Source: Desulfoferula mesophila (GTDB lineage Bacteria > Desulfobacterota > Desulfarculia > Desulfarculales > Desulfarculaceae). From it: a stretch of DNA of 64,000 nucleotides. The stretch is from assembly GCF_037076455.1 (NCBI RefSeq), contig NZ_AP028679.1, forward strand, positions 3,363,501 through 3,427,500, read 5' to 3'. Positions 46,176 through 55,101 of this stretch are shown one piece after another. Within the stretch, counting starts at the first letter, position 1; each line of letters starts with the position of its first letter. Under the pieces are notes generated by a model. That model was not told where the DNA came from. It did not search any database and saw only the letters and a list, made by a program, of their open reading frames with translations. The position numbers and the translations under genes were made by a program.

Positions 46176-46209
46176 GCCCGCCCGGCTATCGGCGCCGGGC
46201 GGGCTTTTT
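46176..46209 (+). terminator. Rho-independent terminator of the IclR/TRAP operon
   Basis: Arms 46176-46186 and 46194-46204 are perfectly complementary over 11 GC-rich bases with a 7-base loop; five T follow at 46205-46209. It lies 20 bases after the dehydrogenase stop. Confidence 0.85.
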
Positions 46210-46963: not shown

Positions 46964-47944
46964 ATGCATGTCATGGTAACCGGTGGGGCAGGCTTCATTG
47001 GATCGCACATCGTTGAATTTCATTTAAAAAAAGGCGACAAGGTTCACGTGGTGGACAACTTGTCCACTGGCGTCTTGGACAACATAAAGCCGTATCTGGA
47101 CAGCCCTGATTTTCATTTTACCAACGACGACATACTCACCATGGACCACCTCGCCAGGATCACCACCTGGGCCGACCGCATTTATCATTTCGCGGCCATT
47201 GTGGGCATGTTCCGGGTGGTCAAGGATCCCATAGGGGTGTTGGCCACCAACATTGCGGGCACCGAGCGTCTCCTGCGGGCGATCGACGACGAAAACTGGA
47301 CCCCGCAGGTGGTCATGGCTTCCACCAGCGAGGTTTACGGCCATTCGCCGGAGCCCGAGTTGGCCGAGGACCAGGTGTTGCACACCCCTCCTTCCGGCAA
47401 GAGCCTGCGTTGGAATTACGCCATAAGCAAGTTGGCCGACGAGGTGTTGGGTCTTTCCTATTTCCAACGTAAAGGCATTAAAATAGTAGTCAGCCGTCTG
47501 TTCAACACCGTCGGGCCCAGGCAGACCGGCAAGTACGGCATGGTGGTTCCCCGCTTCGTGTCCCAAGCGGTGAACGGCGAAGACCTGGTGATTTATGGCG
47601 ACGGCGAGCAGACACGTTGCTTTATCGACGTAAGGGACACGGTCAGGTTTTTGGATTTGCTCGGCGGCAACCCGCAGGCCCACGGCGAAGTTGTCAACGT
47701 GGGCTACAACCGCGAGGTGACCATAAATCAATTAGCCGAGATGACCTTGGAGTTGGCCGGTAGCAAATCCAAAATACGCCACATCACCTACGATGAGGCC
47801 TACGGTCCCGGCTTCGTGGACATTGCCAGGCGCCGCCCCGATGTCACCAAGCTCGCACGCCTCAGTGGCTTTACTCCCCAGTGGAGCCTGGAAGATACCC
47901 TTGGCGACCTTATTGAGCGTTACCGCAAAATAAACAGGAGATAG
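46964..47944 (+). CDS. NAD-dependent nucleotide-sugar epimerase/dehydratase
   Basis: A 326-residue short-chain dehydrogenase-like sugar enzyme of the GalE/RmlB type. The NAD motif TGGAGFIGSH is at residues 6-15; STSEVYG and the YAISK catalytic Tyr-Lys pair (in RWNYAISKLADE) are present. It would interconvert or dehydrate a UDP- or dTDP-sugar. I prefer ATG 46964; an ATG at 46973 and the GTG at 46931 are alternatives. The base composition is lower in GC than in the nearby operons. It leads the polysaccharide cluster, 4 bases before the glycosyltransferase. Confidence 0.88.
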   Translation: MHVMVTGGAGFIGSHIVEFHLKKGDKVHVVDNLSTGVLDNIKPYLDSPDFHFTNDDILTMDHLARITTWADRIYHFAAIVGMFRVVKDPIGVLATNIAGTERLLRAIDDENWTPQVVMASTSEVYGHSPEPELAEDQVLHTPPSGKSLRWNYAISKLADEVLGLSYFQRKGIKIVVSRLFNTVGPRQTGKYGMVVPRFVSQAVNGEDLVIYGDGEQTRCFIDVRDTVRFLDLLGGNPQAHGEVVNVGYNREVTINQLAEMTLELAGSKSKIRHITYDEAYGPGFVDIARRRPDVTKLARLSGFTPQWSLEDTLGDLIERYRKINRR

Positions 47945-47948
47945 AGCC

Positions 47949-49328
47949 GTGGCTGTCATTCCATACCTTGTTGTTGGACCCAACGCCATAATGAGCCTCA
48001 TTGGGTTGGTTCACGGCCCTGACAAAATCAAACCTACGCCTGCCGAAGACTGGCGAGAGGCCAAGGTGGAGGTAGTCATCCCCGCCCTGGACGAGGAACG
48101 CAACATCATCCTCAGCCTGGACTCGATTAAAAAGCAAACTCTGCAGCCCGAGCGGGTGGTGCTGGTCGACGACGGCAGCAACGATCGCACCGCCGCGGTG
48201 GCCGATGAGTACGCCAAGGCCATCGGCCTCAACTTGGTGGTATACAAACGCCAGGCCCCCATCGGCAAGACCGTGACCCTCAAGCGCCAGTCCAGGGAGT
48301 CCGACGCGGACGTGGAGTTCATCCTGGACGGCGACACCGCCCTGGAGTCGCCCAACTACATAGAACGGCTGGTATTTGAACTCTACCAGGGCGTGGGCAT
48401 CGCCAGCGCCTGCGGGACCATCCTGCCCATCAAAACCCGCGCGCGCAAGGCCCTCTTTCAGGAGCCCAAGCCGCGCGAGTTCCTGAAGGAACATCCTCAA
48501 ATAGTGACCGAACTGGACTCAACCTGGTACCAAAGGCTCTCGCGCAAGGTGATTTCCACCTACCGCGATTGCCTCTACCGGTATTTGCAGCGCTTCATCT
48601 ACCACGGGGAGATGGTGTTTTTCGGTTCCATCGTCAACCCCGTGGGCTGTGCCGTGGCCTATCGGCGCAAGTACGTCAAGGAATTGTTCGACGAATACGA
48701 GCCGGTGTTGGGCGAGAACCTGACCACCTCCGAGGACATCTTCATCGGCTTCGCCATGGCCGATTACGGCTACCGCAACATCCAGCTGGCCGACGTGTAC
48801 GCCAGGACCCTGGAGCCGCGCTTCATCCACTGGTTCCACCAGCAACACAACTGGTCCTCGTCGTTCCTGCAGAGCTGTTACTACTTCCCGGGCCTCTTGT
48901 GGAGCCCGTTCAAAGCCCTGAAGCGGTGGCGCTGGCGGCGGCGGAGCAAGAAATCCGGCGTGGAGGAATTGCGCCGCATCAAGGAGCAATACCGTCAGGC
49001 TTTCGGCAGGCAGTTCACCAAGCAGTACGGGCGGCCCATAGGCTGGTTCATCTTCCTGTCGGCCTTTGAGAAGCTGAGCTTCCCCCTGCTGTTGATCCTC
49101 ATGCTGGCCATGGGCTGGTGGGAGGCCTTGCTGGTCACTCTCGCCGCCGAGACGGGGTTGTTTTTGTTCACCCTGTTCGTAACCTCCAAAAGTGACCGAT
49201 TCAGCTCTCTGCTCAAGGGGATACTGATCACCCCCTTCCGCTACACCTCCATAATCATCGACATCGTCACCACCTTCAGGTTCTTTTGGGACGTCCTGGT
49301 CACCAAGAACCGAGACTGGCGCAAGTAG
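47949..49328 (+). CDS. Processive family 2 glycosyltransferase (polysaccharide synthase-like)
   Basis: A 459-residue membrane glycosyltransferase. The GT-A domain carries VVLVDDGSNDRT near residue 73, DGD near 126 and TTSED at about 258. The acceptor motif reads QQHNW at 298-302, where processive synthases (cellulose, hyaluronan, PNAG) have Q(Q/R)xRW; the Arg is replaced by Asn. Three or four helices follow from residue 365 on and could form the polymer channel. The start is GTG 47949 with AGGAG 8 bases before. With its neighbours it suggests an exported polysaccharide. Confidence 0.87.
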   Translation: MAVIPYLVVGPNAIMSLIGLVHGPDKIKPTPAEDWREAKVEVVIPALDEERNIILSLDSIKKQTLQPERVVLVDDGSNDRTAAVADEYAKAIGLNLVVYKRQAPIGKTVTLKRQSRESDADVEFILDGDTALESPNYIERLVFELYQGVGIASACGTILPIKTRARKALFQEPKPREFLKEHPQIVTELDSTWYQRLSRKVISTYRDCLYRYLQRFIYHGEMVFFGSIVNPVGCAVAYRRKYVKELFDEYEPVLGENLTTSEDIFIGFAMADYGYRNIQLADVYARTLEPRFIHWFHQQHNWSSSFLQSCYYFPGLLWSPFKALKRWRWRRRSKKSGVEELRRIKEQYRQAFGRQFTKQYGRPIGWFIFLSAFEKLSFPLLLILMLAMGWWEALLVTLAAETGLFLFTLFVTSKSDRFSSLLKGILITPFRYTSIIIDIVTTFRFFWDVLVTKNRDWRK

Positions 49329-49381
49329 GTGTCACCGTGCAATCGGTCAGGCCAATGAAATTTAGATGGGAAGTGGCAATA

Positions 49382-51199
49382 ATGAAAACATCCCTGCTGC
49401 TGCTGTGCGTGGGCAGCCTGCTATTCCTCAACAGCTTGGCGTTGGCGGCCGATCCCCAGCTCCCTCCCGAGGGCTTCGCGGCCGAGGTTCGAGGGTCGTG
49501 GGGGGAGGCGGCCACCGCGTATGAAAAAGCCCTGGCCCAGCATCCGGAGCGAGTGGACCTGTGGCTGCGCACCGCCGATATTCGCGCCCGCCAGCAAAAG
49601 CCCGGCTTGGTGGTCAAGGCCCTGGAGGGCGCGGTGGCGGCCAAGAAGGACGACCCCGCGCTTTATGCCAGGCTTTCCCAGGCCTATGCGATGGACAACC
49701 AGCCCCAGAAGGCCCTGGATGCCATCAACAAGGCCCTGGAGCTCAAGCCCAACGACTTCGACTACCTCGTGGCCAAGGCCACTTTGGCCAACTGGGCCCA
49801 CAAGCCCAAAGAGTCCACCGAGGCCCTACGCAAGGCCCTGGAGCTGAAGCCGGACGACCAGGGCATTCGCTTGCAATTGGCTCGGCAAGAGAGCTGGCAA
49901 GGGGATTTGGACAACGCGGTCGAGCTATACCAGGAGTATCTGAAGAAAGACCCCCAGAACGCCCAGGTATGGATCGACTACTCCAAGGCCGAATCCTGGC
50001 GGGGCAATTACTCCGCCGCCCTCGATGCCTTGGATGAGTACAAGAAACGGTTCGGCGAGACCAACGAGTACAAGGCCCACCTGGCCAGCATCTACACCTG
50101 GGACAGCCTGGCCAACACCGGCCTGGACATCATCAACGGGCTGTTGAAAACCGACCCCAACAACTACGAATACAACTTTACCCGCACCTTGGCCCTTTCC
50201 CGGGCCCGGCGTCCCGACGATGTGCCGCCCAGCCTGGAAAAAGTCAAGCAGTTGCAGCCCGACAACCCCAGGAACAAGGATCTGGAGCGGGTCGTCCTCA
50301 TCTCCCAGCGCTCCTACGTTAGCGGCGACTTCAACTACTACAGCGACAGCGACGACATCGACCGCCTGCGCTTGTACCTCAACGGCGCCTGGTACATTAC
50401 CCCCTCCACCAACCTGGCCGCGGGCGGCCGCTGGGGCACCATCAACGGCGGGGAAGGCTCCGGCCTGGGTTCCGTGGACGGCAGCGACTCGGTGGATTAC
50501 ACCATCGGCTGGATCGGCGCCTGGCACCGCTTCACTCCTTGGCTGGCCGCGCAGGGCCGCATCGGGCCCGGCAACGTGCAGGGCGGAGACTCCTACACCT
50601 ATTGGGAGGGCATGATCGATCTGAACCCCAGCGACCGGATGAATCTGCGCTTCGTGGCCAACAACGATATCTTCGACGTGTCGCCGCGCGCGGTTTCCCT
50701 GACCATCGAACAAACCATGTACGCGGTCTATTGGGATTGGATGTTCTCCGAGAACGGCTACTTCGCGGGCAACCTGGCCTGGTCCGATTTTTCCGACGGC
50801 AACGAACGTTGGCAGGTCAGCCTGGGCCCGCGCTGGGCCGTGGTCCGCAACCAGTACCTCAACCTGGACGTGGGCCCCGCCTTCTACGCCTACGGCTTCA
50901 GCGAGGATCTGGACGACGGCTATTACGACCCCAGCAGCTATAACTTCATATCAGCCACCGCCTTCATGTACATCAAGCTGTCCGACGACGACGGCATCAG
51001 CCTGCAAGGGGACATCGGAGGCCAGCACGACGAGGACATGAACGGCTACGATCTCGGCTGGGATCTGGTGGCCAGGGGCATCTTCGGCATCTACAGGGAT
51101 CTCATGCTGGAGCCCTATGCCGCCGCCACCAACCGCCAGTCCGGTTCCGGCGCCTACGAGAGCTATCAGTTCGGCCTGCGAGCCGTCTGGCGTTTTTAA
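49382..51199 (+). CDS. Outer membrane TPR/beta-barrel protein, PgaA/BcsC-like exporter
   Basis: A 605-residue exported protein. The signal peptide (SLLLLCVGSLLFLNSLALA) ends near residue 20. Residues 21-300 hold at least seven TPR-like helical repeats with phrases such as YARLSQAYAMDNQPQKALDA. From about residue 310 the sequence becomes beta-strand rich, with alternating aromatic and polar residues, and ends in GLRAVWRF, a C-terminal Phe typical of outer membrane barrels. This plan, a TPR superhelix plus barrel, is that of PgaA and BcsC, which let polysaccharide cross the outer membrane; at 605 residues it is shorter than either. The start is ATG 49382; the frame upstream is a shadow. Confidence 0.82.
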   Translation: MKTSLLLLCVGSLLFLNSLALAADPQLPPEGFAAEVRGSWGEAATAYEKALAQHPERVDLWLRTADIRARQQKPGLVVKALEGAVAAKKDDPALYARLSQAYAMDNQPQKALDAINKALELKPNDFDYLVAKATLANWAHKPKESTEALRKALELKPDDQGIRLQLARQESWQGDLDNAVELYQEYLKKDPQNAQVWIDYSKAESWRGNYSAALDALDEYKKRFGETNEYKAHLASIYTWDSLANTGLDIINGLLKTDPNNYEYNFTRTLALSRARRPDDVPPSLEKVKQLQPDNPRNKDLERVVLISQRSYVSGDFNYYSDSDDIDRLRLYLNGAWYITPSTNLAAGGRWGTINGGEGSGLGSVDGSDSVDYTIGWIGAWHRFTPWLAAQGRIGPGNVQGGDSYTYWEGMIDLNPSDRMNLRFVANNDIFDVSPRAVSLTIEQTMYAVYWDWMFSENGYFAGNLAWSDFSDGNERWQVSLGPRWAVVRNQYLNLDVGPAFYAYGFSEDLDDGYYDPSSYNFISATAFMYIKLSDDDGISLQGDIGGQHDEDMNGYDLGWDLVARGIFGIYRDLMLEPYAAATNRQSGSGAYESYQFGLRAVWRF

Positions 51200-51238
51200 A
51201 TCAAGACCGAGCCTTTTCGGATTCTGTGTAGCTTGCCG

Positions 51239-51263
51239 GGCCCCTGCCGTCCGGGCAGGGGCC
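51239..51263 (+). promoter_or_regulatory. Hairpin after the outer membrane exporter gene
   Basis: GGCCCCTGCC (51239-51248) and GGCAGGGGCC (51254-51263) pair perfectly around GTCCG. It lies 40 bases after the stop. Without a T-run it more likely protects the message or lowers read-through than fully terminates. Confidence 0.5.
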
Positions 51264-51291
51264 GTCCACCCAATGGTCAGCTCTAATTCGC

Positions 51292-51323
51292 GTCCCTCCC
51301 GTCGGCCCGGCCGCGGGAGGGAC
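51292..51323 (+). promoter_or_regulatory. Hairpin in front of the nucleotide-sugar dehydrogenase gene
   Basis: GTCCCTCCC (51292-51300) and GGGAGGGAC (51315-51323) pair perfectly around a 14-base loop. It ends 23 bases before the ATG at 51347 and so lies in the leader, where it could influence ribosome access. It contains the only purine-rich ribosome-like sequence of the leader, GGGAGGGA. Confidence 0.45.
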
Positions 51324-51346
51324 ACCACCCCTGCGAGGCACCAGAT

Positions 51347-52987
51347 ATGAATAGCGGTGAAACACTCTTGTCCATCAGCCCCGACGGAGAAAGCTTTCCC
51401 CTGCCCGGACCGGCCGAATACGAAGCCGAAAACCAACGCCTGGCCGCCTTGGCCGCCGCCAACCGGGAAATGGGCCGGGAGATCGTGGTGGTCATGGGCG
51501 TGGGTTTCGTGGGCTCGGTGATGGCCGCGGTGGTGGCCGACAGCGTGGGACCCGACGACGAGCCGGCCAGGTTCGTCATCGGCATGCAGCGGCCCAGCAG
51601 CCGCAGCTATTGGAAAATACCCTTGCTCAACCGGGGCGAGGCGCCGGTGAAGGCCGAGGACCCCGAGGTCGCCCGCATCGTCAAGCGGTGCGTGCAGGAC
51701 AAGCAGACCCTGACCGCCAGCTTCTCCTACGAGGCCCTGGCCTTGGCCGACGTGGTGGTGGTGGACATCCAGTGCGACTACAACAAGACCGCCCTGGCCG
51801 ACGTGCGCCTGGGCGGGGTGGAGATGCGCGACCTGGAGGCCAGCCTGAAGATCATCGGCGAGATGATTCCCCCCCACTGCCTGGTGCTCATGGAAACCAC
51901 GGTGCCCCCCGGCACCACCGAATACGTGGCCAATCCGGTGATCACCAAGGAGTTCAAGAAAAGAGGCATAACCAGCGAGCCCCTGTTGGCCCACAGCTTC
52001 GAGCGGGTGATGCCGGGCAGGGAGTACGTAAGGAGCATCAAGGACTACTGGCGGGTCTGCGCGGGCACCACCCCCCAAAGCCGCCAGAGGGTGATAGATT
52101 TTCTTTCCGGCATCCTCAACGTGAAGGACTACCCCCTGACCGTCTTGGACCGCCCCCTGGAAAGCGAAACCACCAAGATAGTGGAGAACAGCTACCGCGC
52201 CACCATCCTGGCCTTCATGGACGAGTGGAGCAACTTCGCCGAAAATGCCGGGGTGGACATCGTGAAGGTGGTGGAGTGCATCCGCAAACGTCCCACCCAC
52301 AGCAATCTGCTTTTTCCCGGTCCCGGCGTGGGTGGTTATTGCCTGCCCAAGGACGGCGGCCTGGGGGTGTGGGCCTACCACAACCTCCTGGGCTTCCAGG
52401 CCCCGCTGTTCAAGATGACCCCCATGGCCATCGACATCAACGACACCCGTCCATTGCACGCCGCCGGCTTGGTGCGCGACGCCCTCAAGGAGATGGGTCG
52501 TCTGGTGCCCGGCAGCCGCATCGCCGTGCTGGGAGCCGCCTACCGCGAAGACGTGGGCGACACCCGCTATTCGGGCAGCGAGCTGGTGGTGCGCCGTCTG
52601 GCCGAGATGGGGGCGGACATCGAGGTGCACGACCCCTACGTGGCCAAATGGTGGGAGTTCGTAAAGCAGGACGAGTACCCCGTCACCTGCACAACCCGGG
52701 CCTGCTTTTTCCGCAACCAGGAAGGGCTGATGGACCTGGATGTGAGCCATGATCTACCCGGCGTCTTGCGCGGGGCGGACGCCGTGGTGCTTTGCGTGCG
52801 GCACCATGAGTACCTTGAGCTGGAGCCGGATTGGGTGGTGGAGGCCTGCGGCGGCCCCGTGGCGATCATCGACTGCTTCGCCCTGTTGGACGACCAGAAG
52901 ATACGCCGCTATTTCGAGCTGGGCTGCGAGGTAAAGGGCCTGGGGCGGGGGCATGTGAAGCGGATCAAGGATTCGCTGAAAAAGTAG
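51347..52987 (+). CDS. UDP-glucose/GDP-mannose dehydrogenase-family enzyme
   Basis: A 546-residue nucleotide-sugar 6-dehydrogenase that would oxidise a UDP- or GDP-hexose to its uronic acid with two NAD. VVMGVGFVGSVMAA near residue 50 is the NAD site; the catalytic Cys332 is in GPGVGGYCLPKDGG. Central and C-terminal UDPGDH domains follow, with VLGAAYREDVGDTR. It is about 100 residues longer than most members, mainly from an N-terminal extension before the Rossmann fold. It supplies a negatively charged sugar, and is in line with the synthase and exporter genes. Confidence 0.9.
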   Translation: MNSGETLLSISPDGESFPLPGPAEYEAENQRLAALAAANREMGREIVVVMGVGFVGSVMAAVVADSVGPDDEPARFVIGMQRPSSRSYWKIPLLNRGEAPVKAEDPEVARIVKRCVQDKQTLTASFSYEALALADVVVVDIQCDYNKTALADVRLGGVEMRDLEASLKIIGEMIPPHCLVLMETTVPPGTTEYVANPVITKEFKKRGITSEPLLAHSFERVMPGREYVRSIKDYWRVCAGTTPQSRQRVIDFLSGILNVKDYPLTVLDRPLESETTKIVENSYRATILAFMDEWSNFAENAGVDIVKVVECIRKRPTHSNLLFPGPGVGGYCLPKDGGLGVWAYHNLLGFQAPLFKMTPMAIDINDTRPLHAAGLVRDALKEMGRLVPGSRIAVLGAAYREDVGDTRYSGSELVVRRLAEMGADIEVHDPYVAKWWEFVKQDEYPVTCTTRACFFRNQEGLMDLDVSHDLPGVLRGADAVVLCVRHHEYLELEPDWVVEACGGPVAIIDCFALLDDQKIRRYFELGCEVKGLGRGHVKRIKDSLKK

Positions 52988-53004: not shown

Positions 53005-53439
53005 CTACGGGGCGGCCAAGTCTCCCAGGGCCTGGGGGGCGGCCGAAGCGCAGCCCTGGACCAGTTCGGGGGAGGCCTCCAGGCCCCGCACCCACAGGGC
53101 CACGAACTCCTCGATGGAGGCAATGAAATCCGGATCGTGCTCGGTGCGGTTGATGGTGCAGTGCACCACCACCCGCTCCGGGCTGGGCGGGAAGCCGGTG
53201 GTCACGGTCCAGGCCAGGGAGTTGGGGCAGGTGGGCATGGTGAAGCGAACCCCGCCGTTGATGTTCTCCCGGCGCAGGGCGAAATGGCCCCACATGCAGT
53301 AGACCTCCCCCTCCGCCTCGCTGACCGCCTTGACCAGGGAGCTGATGCCCGCGCAGAACTCGGGCAGCCGGTCCAGGCTCAGGCATTGTTGCAGGCGCTT
53401 TGCGTCGGTGCGCACCTCGGCCAGGCCGAAAAATTCCAC
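53005..53439 (-). CDS. Conserved-looking protein of unknown function
   Basis: A 144-residue soluble protein with no signal or membrane segment. It has six Cys, none in a metal-binding cluster, and a beta-rich centre (GVRFTMPTCPNSLAWTVTTG and RVVVHCTINR). The GTG at 53439 has GGAGGAA 4 bases upstream, a strong ribosome site. Its stop lies 17 bases from the convergent dehydrogenase gene. I do not recognise a family. Confidence 0.6.
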   Translation of the reverse strand: MEFFGLAEVRTDAKRLQQCLSLDRLPEFCAGISSLVKAVSEAEGEVYCMWGHFALRRENINGGVRFTMPTCPNSLAWTVTTGFPPSPERVVVHCTINRTEHDPDFIASIEEFVALWVRGLEASPELVQGCASAAPQALGDLAAP

Positions 53440-53685: not shown

Positions 53686-55101
53686 ATGAACGAAAAACCA
53701 ACCCTAATCATGGTATTCGCCCTATTGGGGTGCGTCGCCTTTCCGTTGGCGGTCTATACCCATTTCTACCTTTATGCGGACGGCGCTTATTTTTTTACGG
53801 GGCTTTTTGAACACAACAACTTTTGGGAAGGCTTGGCGAACTTCCCCCCTTTTGCCAGATCCATCGCCTATTTCTTGACCAAGACCCCGGCCCGGCTGGC
53901 CATTGGCAGCGGGTGGTTCGATATCAACCAAATCTCATATATTTACGGCGCTTTTCTGTACTATGTGCCCTTTGGCTGCTATGCGGCCTCGGCCTATTTG
54001 CTCTACCGCAAAGGCATGACCCTAAGCGCCGCGCTTTTGGTGCTGATGTATTTGATCCTGGTGTATTTCACCTCATATTTCATCGTTGGCGAGTCGCATT
54101 TATCGACGGGCTTGTTTTTGCTCACCTGCGCGGTCCTGGTCACTTGCGATACACGCAAGGTCACGACCCTTGTGGCGCTGGCGTGCCTGGGCGCCGCCGC
54201 GATGTGGACCTATCAATTTTGGGTCGCGTTCTATCCTGTTTGCCTGGTTCTGTTCATACTCGGGATTCGCGGCTCAAAGACCTCTCTGCCGATAAAAACC
54301 TTTCACTTTCTGATCATCGCGCTTTATCTCTTCGGTTTCGTCATGAACGCCCGGACGCTGATATTTTATAGGCATCCGGCGATGCGCAATGCCATGCTCA
54401 CGTCCCATCTGCTGGATTATTGGCCGATACCGCTCATCGCCTGCCTGCTCTTTGCGCTCACCCTTTTTTATATTTATCTCGGCTCCGGAATCTATCGCCA
54501 CCCCGCCTTGGACCGCTGGTTCAAGAGAGCCGGCCAGATGGCGTCTCCGCGAAAGGCATGGGCCGTGGCCATCCTGGCCCTGTGGGCCGTCTCCGCGCTT
54601 GCCATGCTGCTGCTGACATTTTATGACCGCGGCTTCCTGCCTCCTGCCAACCACGCCTATGCCCTGCGCAGCATGAACCTCTTTCTGCCGCTATTGTTCG
54701 CGGCCACCCTCTTGCCCGCGCGTGAGAACCAAACCGCCAAGGGGTTCAAGATATCGGCCAGAGGCATATCGCTCTGCTGCGTCTTGCCGATGCTGGCTTT
54801 AACCATGCAATCCAGCGTGTTGCATAGCTTGGGCTGGCGGGACTATGCAGACAAGGTTTACCAGGCCACCCTGCATCGAACCGGTTACGTGTCCCTTGAC
54901 AACCTTGACCTATACCAAGAAAGGCAGTACCGCTGGTCCTGGACCTCTCCCACGATGAGCATAATCATGCAGGTCAAGGCCGGGGAAGACGTAAGCTGCA
55001 TCCTCTACAACCCCCACGCCGACTGGCAACCCTTCGACCCGGCGCAGCACGCGCGCGCCGCCAGACTGGTCCAGCGCATGGGCAGGCGTTTGCTTTTTTG
55101 A
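53686..55101 (+). CDS. Polytopic membrane protein of unknown function
   Basis: A 471-residue protein with about ten hydrophobic helices and long loops at FLTKTPARLAIGSGWFDIN and after residue 380. The layout, with Asp/Glu in the first extracytoplasmic loop (YLYADGAYFFTGLFEH), is reminiscent of GT-C-type glycosyltransferases or lipid-linked sugar enzymes, but no catalytic motif is clear. GC is visibly lower, nearer 50-55% in many stretches, than in neighbouring genes, which suggests transfer from elsewhere. No ribosome site better than GGATT is seen before the ATG. Confidence 0.65.
   Translation: MNEKPTLIMVFALLGCVAFPLAVYTHFYLYADGAYFFTGLFEHNNFWEGLANFPPFARSIAYFLTKTPARLAIGSGWFDINQISYIYGAFLYYVPFGCYAASAYLLYRKGMTLSAALLVLMYLILVYFTSYFIVGESHLSTGLFLLTCAVLVTCDTRKVTTLVALACLGAAAMWTYQFWVAFYPVCLVLFILGIRGSKTSLPIKTFHFLIIALYLFGFVMNARTLIFYRHPAMRNAMLTSHLLDYWPIPLIACLLFALTLFYIYLGSGIYRHPALDRWFKRAGQMASPRKAWAVAILALWAVSALAMLLLTFYDRGFLPPANHAYALRSMNLFLPLLFAATLLPARENQTAKGFKISARGISLCCVLPMLALTMQSSVLHSLGWRDYADKVYQATLHRTGYVSLDNLDLYQERQYRWSWTSPTMSIIMQVKAGEDVSCILYNPHADWQPFDPAQHARAARLVQRMGRRLLF

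Follow-up and report, generated by a model that had tools for sequence, protein, structure and literature searches.

The locus at positions 46964–52987 of the window (the whole 64,000-nucleotide stretch of Desulfoferula mesophila DNA that was analyzed) likely encodes a compact synthase-dependent exopolysaccharide system, in which an NDP-sugar epimerase, a GT2 glycosyltransferase and a PgaA-type exporter are accompanied by a swappable dehydrogenase. Judged from sequence, the unit appears to be a new variant of synthase-dependent exopolysaccharide export that carries no adjacent c-di-GMP or co-polymerase partner. The best supported part of this reading is the identity of the TPR/barrel protein as a polysaccharide exporter, which its predicted structure supports with high confidence. 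No description of an epimerase–GT2–exporter unit was found in the open-access literature.

Gene organization and boundaries of the locus

ORF calling combined with Pfam and NCBIfam searches revealed four open reading frames, all open and oriented in the same direction on the + strand of the window; the host genome is a single contig of 4.48 Mb. The four-gene set described in an earlier note on this DNA was thus recovered, with the expected Pfam identities for all four products:

46964..47944, + strand: NDP-sugar epimerase/dehydratase-family enzyme, core gene 1 (326 aa from ATG; PF01370, 1.1e-47)
47949..49328, + strand: GT2 glycosyltransferase, presumed polysaccharide synthase, core gene 2 (459 aa, GTG start; PF00535, 3.2e-16)
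49382..51199, + strand: TPR and predicted 16-stranded outer-membrane barrel, PgaA-type exporter, core gene 3 (605 aa; TPR and PF21197, 7e-7)
51239..51324 (bounds approximate), + strand: two strong GC-rich hairpins in the gap between the exporter and dehydrogenase genes (RNA fold of the region)
51347..52987, + strand: NDP-sugar 6-dehydrogenase, a neighbor whose membership in the unit is uncertain (546 aa; PF03720/PF00984/PF03721, UDPG_MGDP_dh domains, 1e-20)

The intergenic gaps across the four genes are, in order, 4, 53 and 147 bp. The upstream limit of the unit is a strong, terminator-like hairpin at 46176–46204, located 3' of a zinc alcohol dehydrogenase gene. On the downstream side, the minus strand carries a small gene (53005–53439) that gave no Pfam or NCBIfam family match. 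The next candidate considered, 53686–55101, encodes a polytopic membrane protein (GC 0.557, no family match) with 49% identity to a protein of one same-genus genome. It was rejected as a member of the unit: this genome lacks the GT2, and the other GT2-bearing genomes searched contain no relative.

The exporter

The N-terminus of the exporter reads as a signal peptide. AlphaFold2 modeling, for which the window protein and four homologues served as input, produced a confident model (pLDDT 90) with 17 helices, corresponding to approximately eight TPR repeats, followed by 16 β-strands. A VIA-align fold search with the barrel identified PgaA as the best match (Z 28.4, rmsd 2.1 Å, 278 of 290 residues aligned), ahead of BcsC (Z 25.5) and PelB (Z 24.5); the top-ranked barrel not known as a polysaccharide exporter was CymA, with Z 18.7. 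The Pfam family PgaA_barrel (PF21197) also passes its cut-off on this protein (29.1 against 27). The structure prediction of the barrel proposed in the earlier note thus returned a 16-stranded polysaccharide-exporter fold, in agreement with the export role suggested there for the TPR/barrel protein.

The product of the window GT2 would be the cargo of this exporter. The barrel domain has a net charge of −21, compared with −11 for PgaA, and such a net acidic barrel does not favor a polyanionic cargo. Its inward residues, with facing estimated from strand alternation and not from coordinates, comprise 12 K/R and 14 D/E. For comparison, an electropositive pore is characteristic of polyanion exporters such as AlgE.

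The presumed GT2 synthase

The window GT2 contains the DD, DxD and SED motifs and a QxxxW motif replacing QxxRW, a processive-type set, together with membrane segments detected by hydropathy. SED and QxxxW are retained in all 24 GT2 copies that have a barrel gene. In all 24 intact members, Q and W of QxxRW are retained and the arginine position is occupied by N, M, L or K; hence every member lacks the R of the Q(Q/R)xRW signature of processive GT2 synthases. The nearest named synthases are PgaC and NodC, both at a distance: against NCBIfam, the window protein scores 52 bits for NodC (cut-off 550) and 40.9 bits for PgaC (cut-off 422.3), and a profile of the 24 members matches E. coli PgaC with 47 bits over about 100 residues only. 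The window GT2 is a distinct lineage, remote from every named family.

The structure model of the GT2 was poor (pLDDT 54), and this weakness makes the fold search uninformative: hyaluronan synthase scored in the same range as ArnC and archaeal/dolichyl-phosphate mannosyltransferases. The structure prediction suggested in the earlier note, therefore, did not separate a hyaluronan-type synthase from lipid-linked sugar transferases. Of the processive synthase postulated there, the processive-type motifs and the gene linkage to the exporter stand, while processivity itself, given the weak model, we can only infer.

The Lysobacterales search also returned three more distant GT2 copies (L053:8984-10399, L054:9362-10780 and L055:9096-10502), in which SED and QxxxW are lost and no exporter or epimerase gene is found nearby. 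These copies are probably decayed or repurposed. Joint loss of the motifs and the exporter is what would be expected if the two share one function.

Distribution and conserved core

Relatives of the GT2 were detected in Poribacteria (61% identity), Lysobacterales, Legionellaceae and one MAG labeled Myxococcales. Within the window's own phylum, the sole carrier among 345 genomes is the window genome itself. In the orders of the Legionellaceae and Lysobacterales MAGs, the GT2 is present in 8 of 143 and 15 of 299 genomes, respectively; across the phylum of the Lysobacterales MAG, none was found among 397 sampled genomes, the centre genome aside. In a plasmid collection, neither the GT2 nor the exporter had a full-length relative.

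The exporter gene adjoins the GT2 in 24 of 27 GT2 loci (23 by profile search, plus L005, whose contig ends within the TPR region), and the two genes often overlap, by 12 or 33 bp. An epimerase is located near the GT2 in 20 of the 27 loci, the window counted; the seven loci without it include the three probably decayed GT2 copies and two short contigs. That relatives of the GT2 (40–61% identity to the window copy) and of the epimerase (48–57%) recur alongside the barrel gene elsewhere among bacteria argues that the gene set is not a chance arrangement. On this distribution, the conserved core comprises three genes, namely epimerase, synthase and exporter.

An NDP-sugar dehydrogenase is also found in L017–L020, L023 and L056, so the search for relatives of the four-gene unit did recover the same gene content, albeit with dehydrogenases that are not orthologous to that of the window. 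The latter is 26–30% identical to the relatives' enzymes and shares 75% identity with a paralogue encoded in an O-antigen-like locus of the window genome. Among the specific models, TviB (UDP-GlcNAc 6-dehydrogenase) was the top match for the four relatives' dehydrogenases tested (324–438 bits, below the cut-off of 592); the window enzyme reaches 36.6 bits. In the 147-base gap preceding its gene, region 51195–51350 folds with −74.8 kcal/mol (z −4.2) into two strong hairpins lacking a T run. Its low identity to the relatives' enzymes, the paralogue elsewhere and the hairpins speak against the full unit membership assigned to the dehydrogenase in the earlier note; it appears to be a replaceable neighbor outside the conserved core, which may still supply precursor. 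The hairpins at 51239–51324 are candidate terminators, REP-like elements or mRNA stabilizers.

GC content is 0.56 for the epimerase, 0.59 for the GT2, 0.625 for the exporter and 0.64 for the dehydrogenase, with most neighbors at about 0.63–0.69. The patchy spread and the low GC of the epimerase and GT2 genes suggest that the unit was probably gained by the window genome through horizontal transfer. An empty-site comparison in genome G001 revealed no synteny.

Comparison with known systems

Only five synthase-dependent exopolysaccharides were counted in 2020, and the Gram-negative systems of this kind are defined by an inner-membrane synthase, a c-di-GMP receptor/co-polymerase, a periplasmic modification enzyme, and a TPR domain with an outer-membrane pore (PMC7112194). 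The AlphaFold2 model and fold matches of the window exporter provide the last of these features, and the motifs and membrane segments of the GT2 make the first probable, its model being too poor to show processivity. No PilZ or PgaD-like domain was detected in the four proteins, and the intergenic gaps leave no room for one; the domain search likewise revealed no periplasmic modification enzyme in the unit. Three PF01522 genes occur elsewhere in the genome, none adjacent to the unit. The expectation that deacetylase, c-di-GMP receptor and co-polymerase are missing holds for the window unit; as regards the deacetylase, it fails for several relatives, which encode one.

In the PNAG system of E. 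coli (pgaABCD), the exporter has the fold seen in the window unit, TPR repeats and a 16-stranded barrel, and the similarity of PgaC to the GT2 is significant, though confined to part of the protein. The window unit differs in having QxxxW instead of QxxRW, in adding an NDP-sugar epimerase, and in lacking the PgaB deacetylase and PgaD. Membership in the pga family was rejected, with PgaA at 89 bits against 366.65, PgaC below its cut-off as given above, and PgaB and PgaD absent from the unit. That its scores do not reach the cut-offs set for known PNAG families bears out the proposal that the locus is a variant outside the known classes. BcsC of cellulose (Bcs) systems and PelB of Pel systems likewise combine TPR repeats with a barrel of matching fold; however, no BcsB-, PilZ-, BcsZ-like or Pel partner domain is found in the window's four proteins. 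Alginate partner proteins were not seen in the unit either.

Several relatives recall Vi antigen biosynthesis, carrying a TviB-like dehydrogenase with the epimerase. In contrast, the window dehydrogenase is not TviB-like, and the window epimerase scores 73 bits for TviC against a cut-off of 760. Vi antigen is exported by an ABC transporter. The Sinorhizobium arabinose-containing polysaccharide (APS) resembles the window unit in that precursor-sugar enzymes are encoded in one short operon with other aps genes (PMC7902896). APS differs in that c-di-GMP stimulates its production. A search of Sinorhizobium plasmids at E 1e-5 detected no relative of the GT2.

Alternative explanations

A divergent PNAG-like system, in which the GT2 makes a plain homopolymer of N-acetylglucosamine or a similar hexosamine, the role of the epimerase is limited to modifying the hexosamine and the dehydrogenase is uninvolved, is a doubtful alternative, though one to be taken seriously. 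It would agree with PgaA as the nearest exporter fold, with PgaC and NodC as the nearest named synthases, and with the polysaccharide deacetylase or GH18 enzyme of some relatives. Scores far under the PgaA and PgaC cut-offs, the missing PgaB and PgaD, and the presence of an epimerase-type gene near the GT2 at 20 of the 27 loci argue against it. A pentose polymer appears unlikely. Here, the dehydrogenase would form UDP-glucuronate, the epimerase-family enzyme would convert it to UDP-xylose, and the GT2 would polymerize the pentose, as in the APS operon, whose make-up is similar. The closest solved structure to the epimerase is indeed human UDP-glucuronate decarboxylase (153 bits), whose TSEVYG stretch is present in the window protein. 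Yet this stretch varies (L023 reads SSSVYG), the window dehydrogenase is not orthologous to those accompanying the unit in relatives, which have TviB-like enzymes, and the search of Sinorhizobium plasmids detected no GT2 relative.

ArnC and archaeal/dolichyl-phosphate mannosyltransferases rank among the best fold matches of the GT2 model, as would suit an enzyme that transfers single sugars to the lipid polyprenyl phosphate while the barrel serves another pathway. We consider this very improbable: the model is poor and gives hyaluronan synthases comparable scores, no locus that retains the exporter gene has lost SED or QxxxW, and the GT2 and exporter genes often overlap. Least credible is that the window unit is a broken or silent import. 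Its isolation within its own phylum sample and its foreign base composition would fit such an origin, but all ORFs are open, no motif is disrupted and the exporter yields a confident model.

The likely sugar and the proposed route

The gene content of the relatives points to amino sugars. In L006, genes read as GlmS and GlmM lie beside the unit together with a polysaccharide deacetylase; other loci add a polysaccharide deacetylase (L047), a GH18 enzyme (L004) or a formyltransferase (L015), and acyltransferase genes are added in some. Combined with the TviB-like dehydrogenases, the deacetylase, GH18 or acyltransferase genes make an amino-sugar polymer likelier than a plain polyuronate. Judged from these relatives, N-acetylhexosamine or its uronic acid is the most likely sugar. 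The acidic polymer proposed in the earlier note is not established; with the dehydrogenase outside the conserved core, it does not follow from the gene set, and the barrel charge does not favor a polyanion.

We therefore return to the compact synthase-dependent system as the preferred reading. An epimerase-type enzyme, aided by the exchangeable dehydrogenase, would provide the activated sugar, which the GT2 would polymerize at the cytoplasmic face. The chain would cross the inner membrane via the membrane segments of the GT2 itself, no co-polymerase being encoded alongside. In the periplasm, the TPR repeats would then take it up for release through the 16-stranded PgaA-type barrel, whose fold is predicted with high confidence.

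Tentatively, the locus may even represent a further exopolysaccharide class, in which a self-contained QxxxW GT2 operates with no co-polymerase or c-di-GMP receptor, an N-acetylhexosaminuronate-containing polymer leaves through a PgaA-type pore, and a three-gene cassette travels between genomes while the dehydrogenase is recruited locally. Compact and apparently mobile, the unit combines a PgaA-type pore with a synthase that belongs to neither the PNAG nor the cellulose family, has no regulatory partner next to it, and could add a polymer to the list of five (PMC7112194). The three-gene unit would also offer a simple system for studying the transport of a chain through both membranes by nothing more than a synthase and a pore, and its occurrence in Lysobacterales and Legionellales may allow tests in bacteria that can be grown in the laboratory.

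Additional observations in related loci

The MAG contig labeled Myxococcales (L006 / L023) is rich in AT, with 37% GC, and carries a GT2 that clusters with the Legionellales copies, which points to either transfer or a misassigned MAG. Genes of the Lysobacterales loci that were initially suspected to be T2SS-like turned out, on reading, to be housekeeping neighbors. A lone T2SSG-type pseudopilin gene occurs near the unit in Legionellales loci L005 and L015–L020, with PF08334 detected in both copies tested. Finally, a formyltransferase-domain gene (L015:5863-6798) and a deacetylase-like gene with no Pfam match (L015:6785-7666) are located 3' of the unit in L015, a Legionellales genome, and recur in L016, a pair hinting at modified amino sugars.
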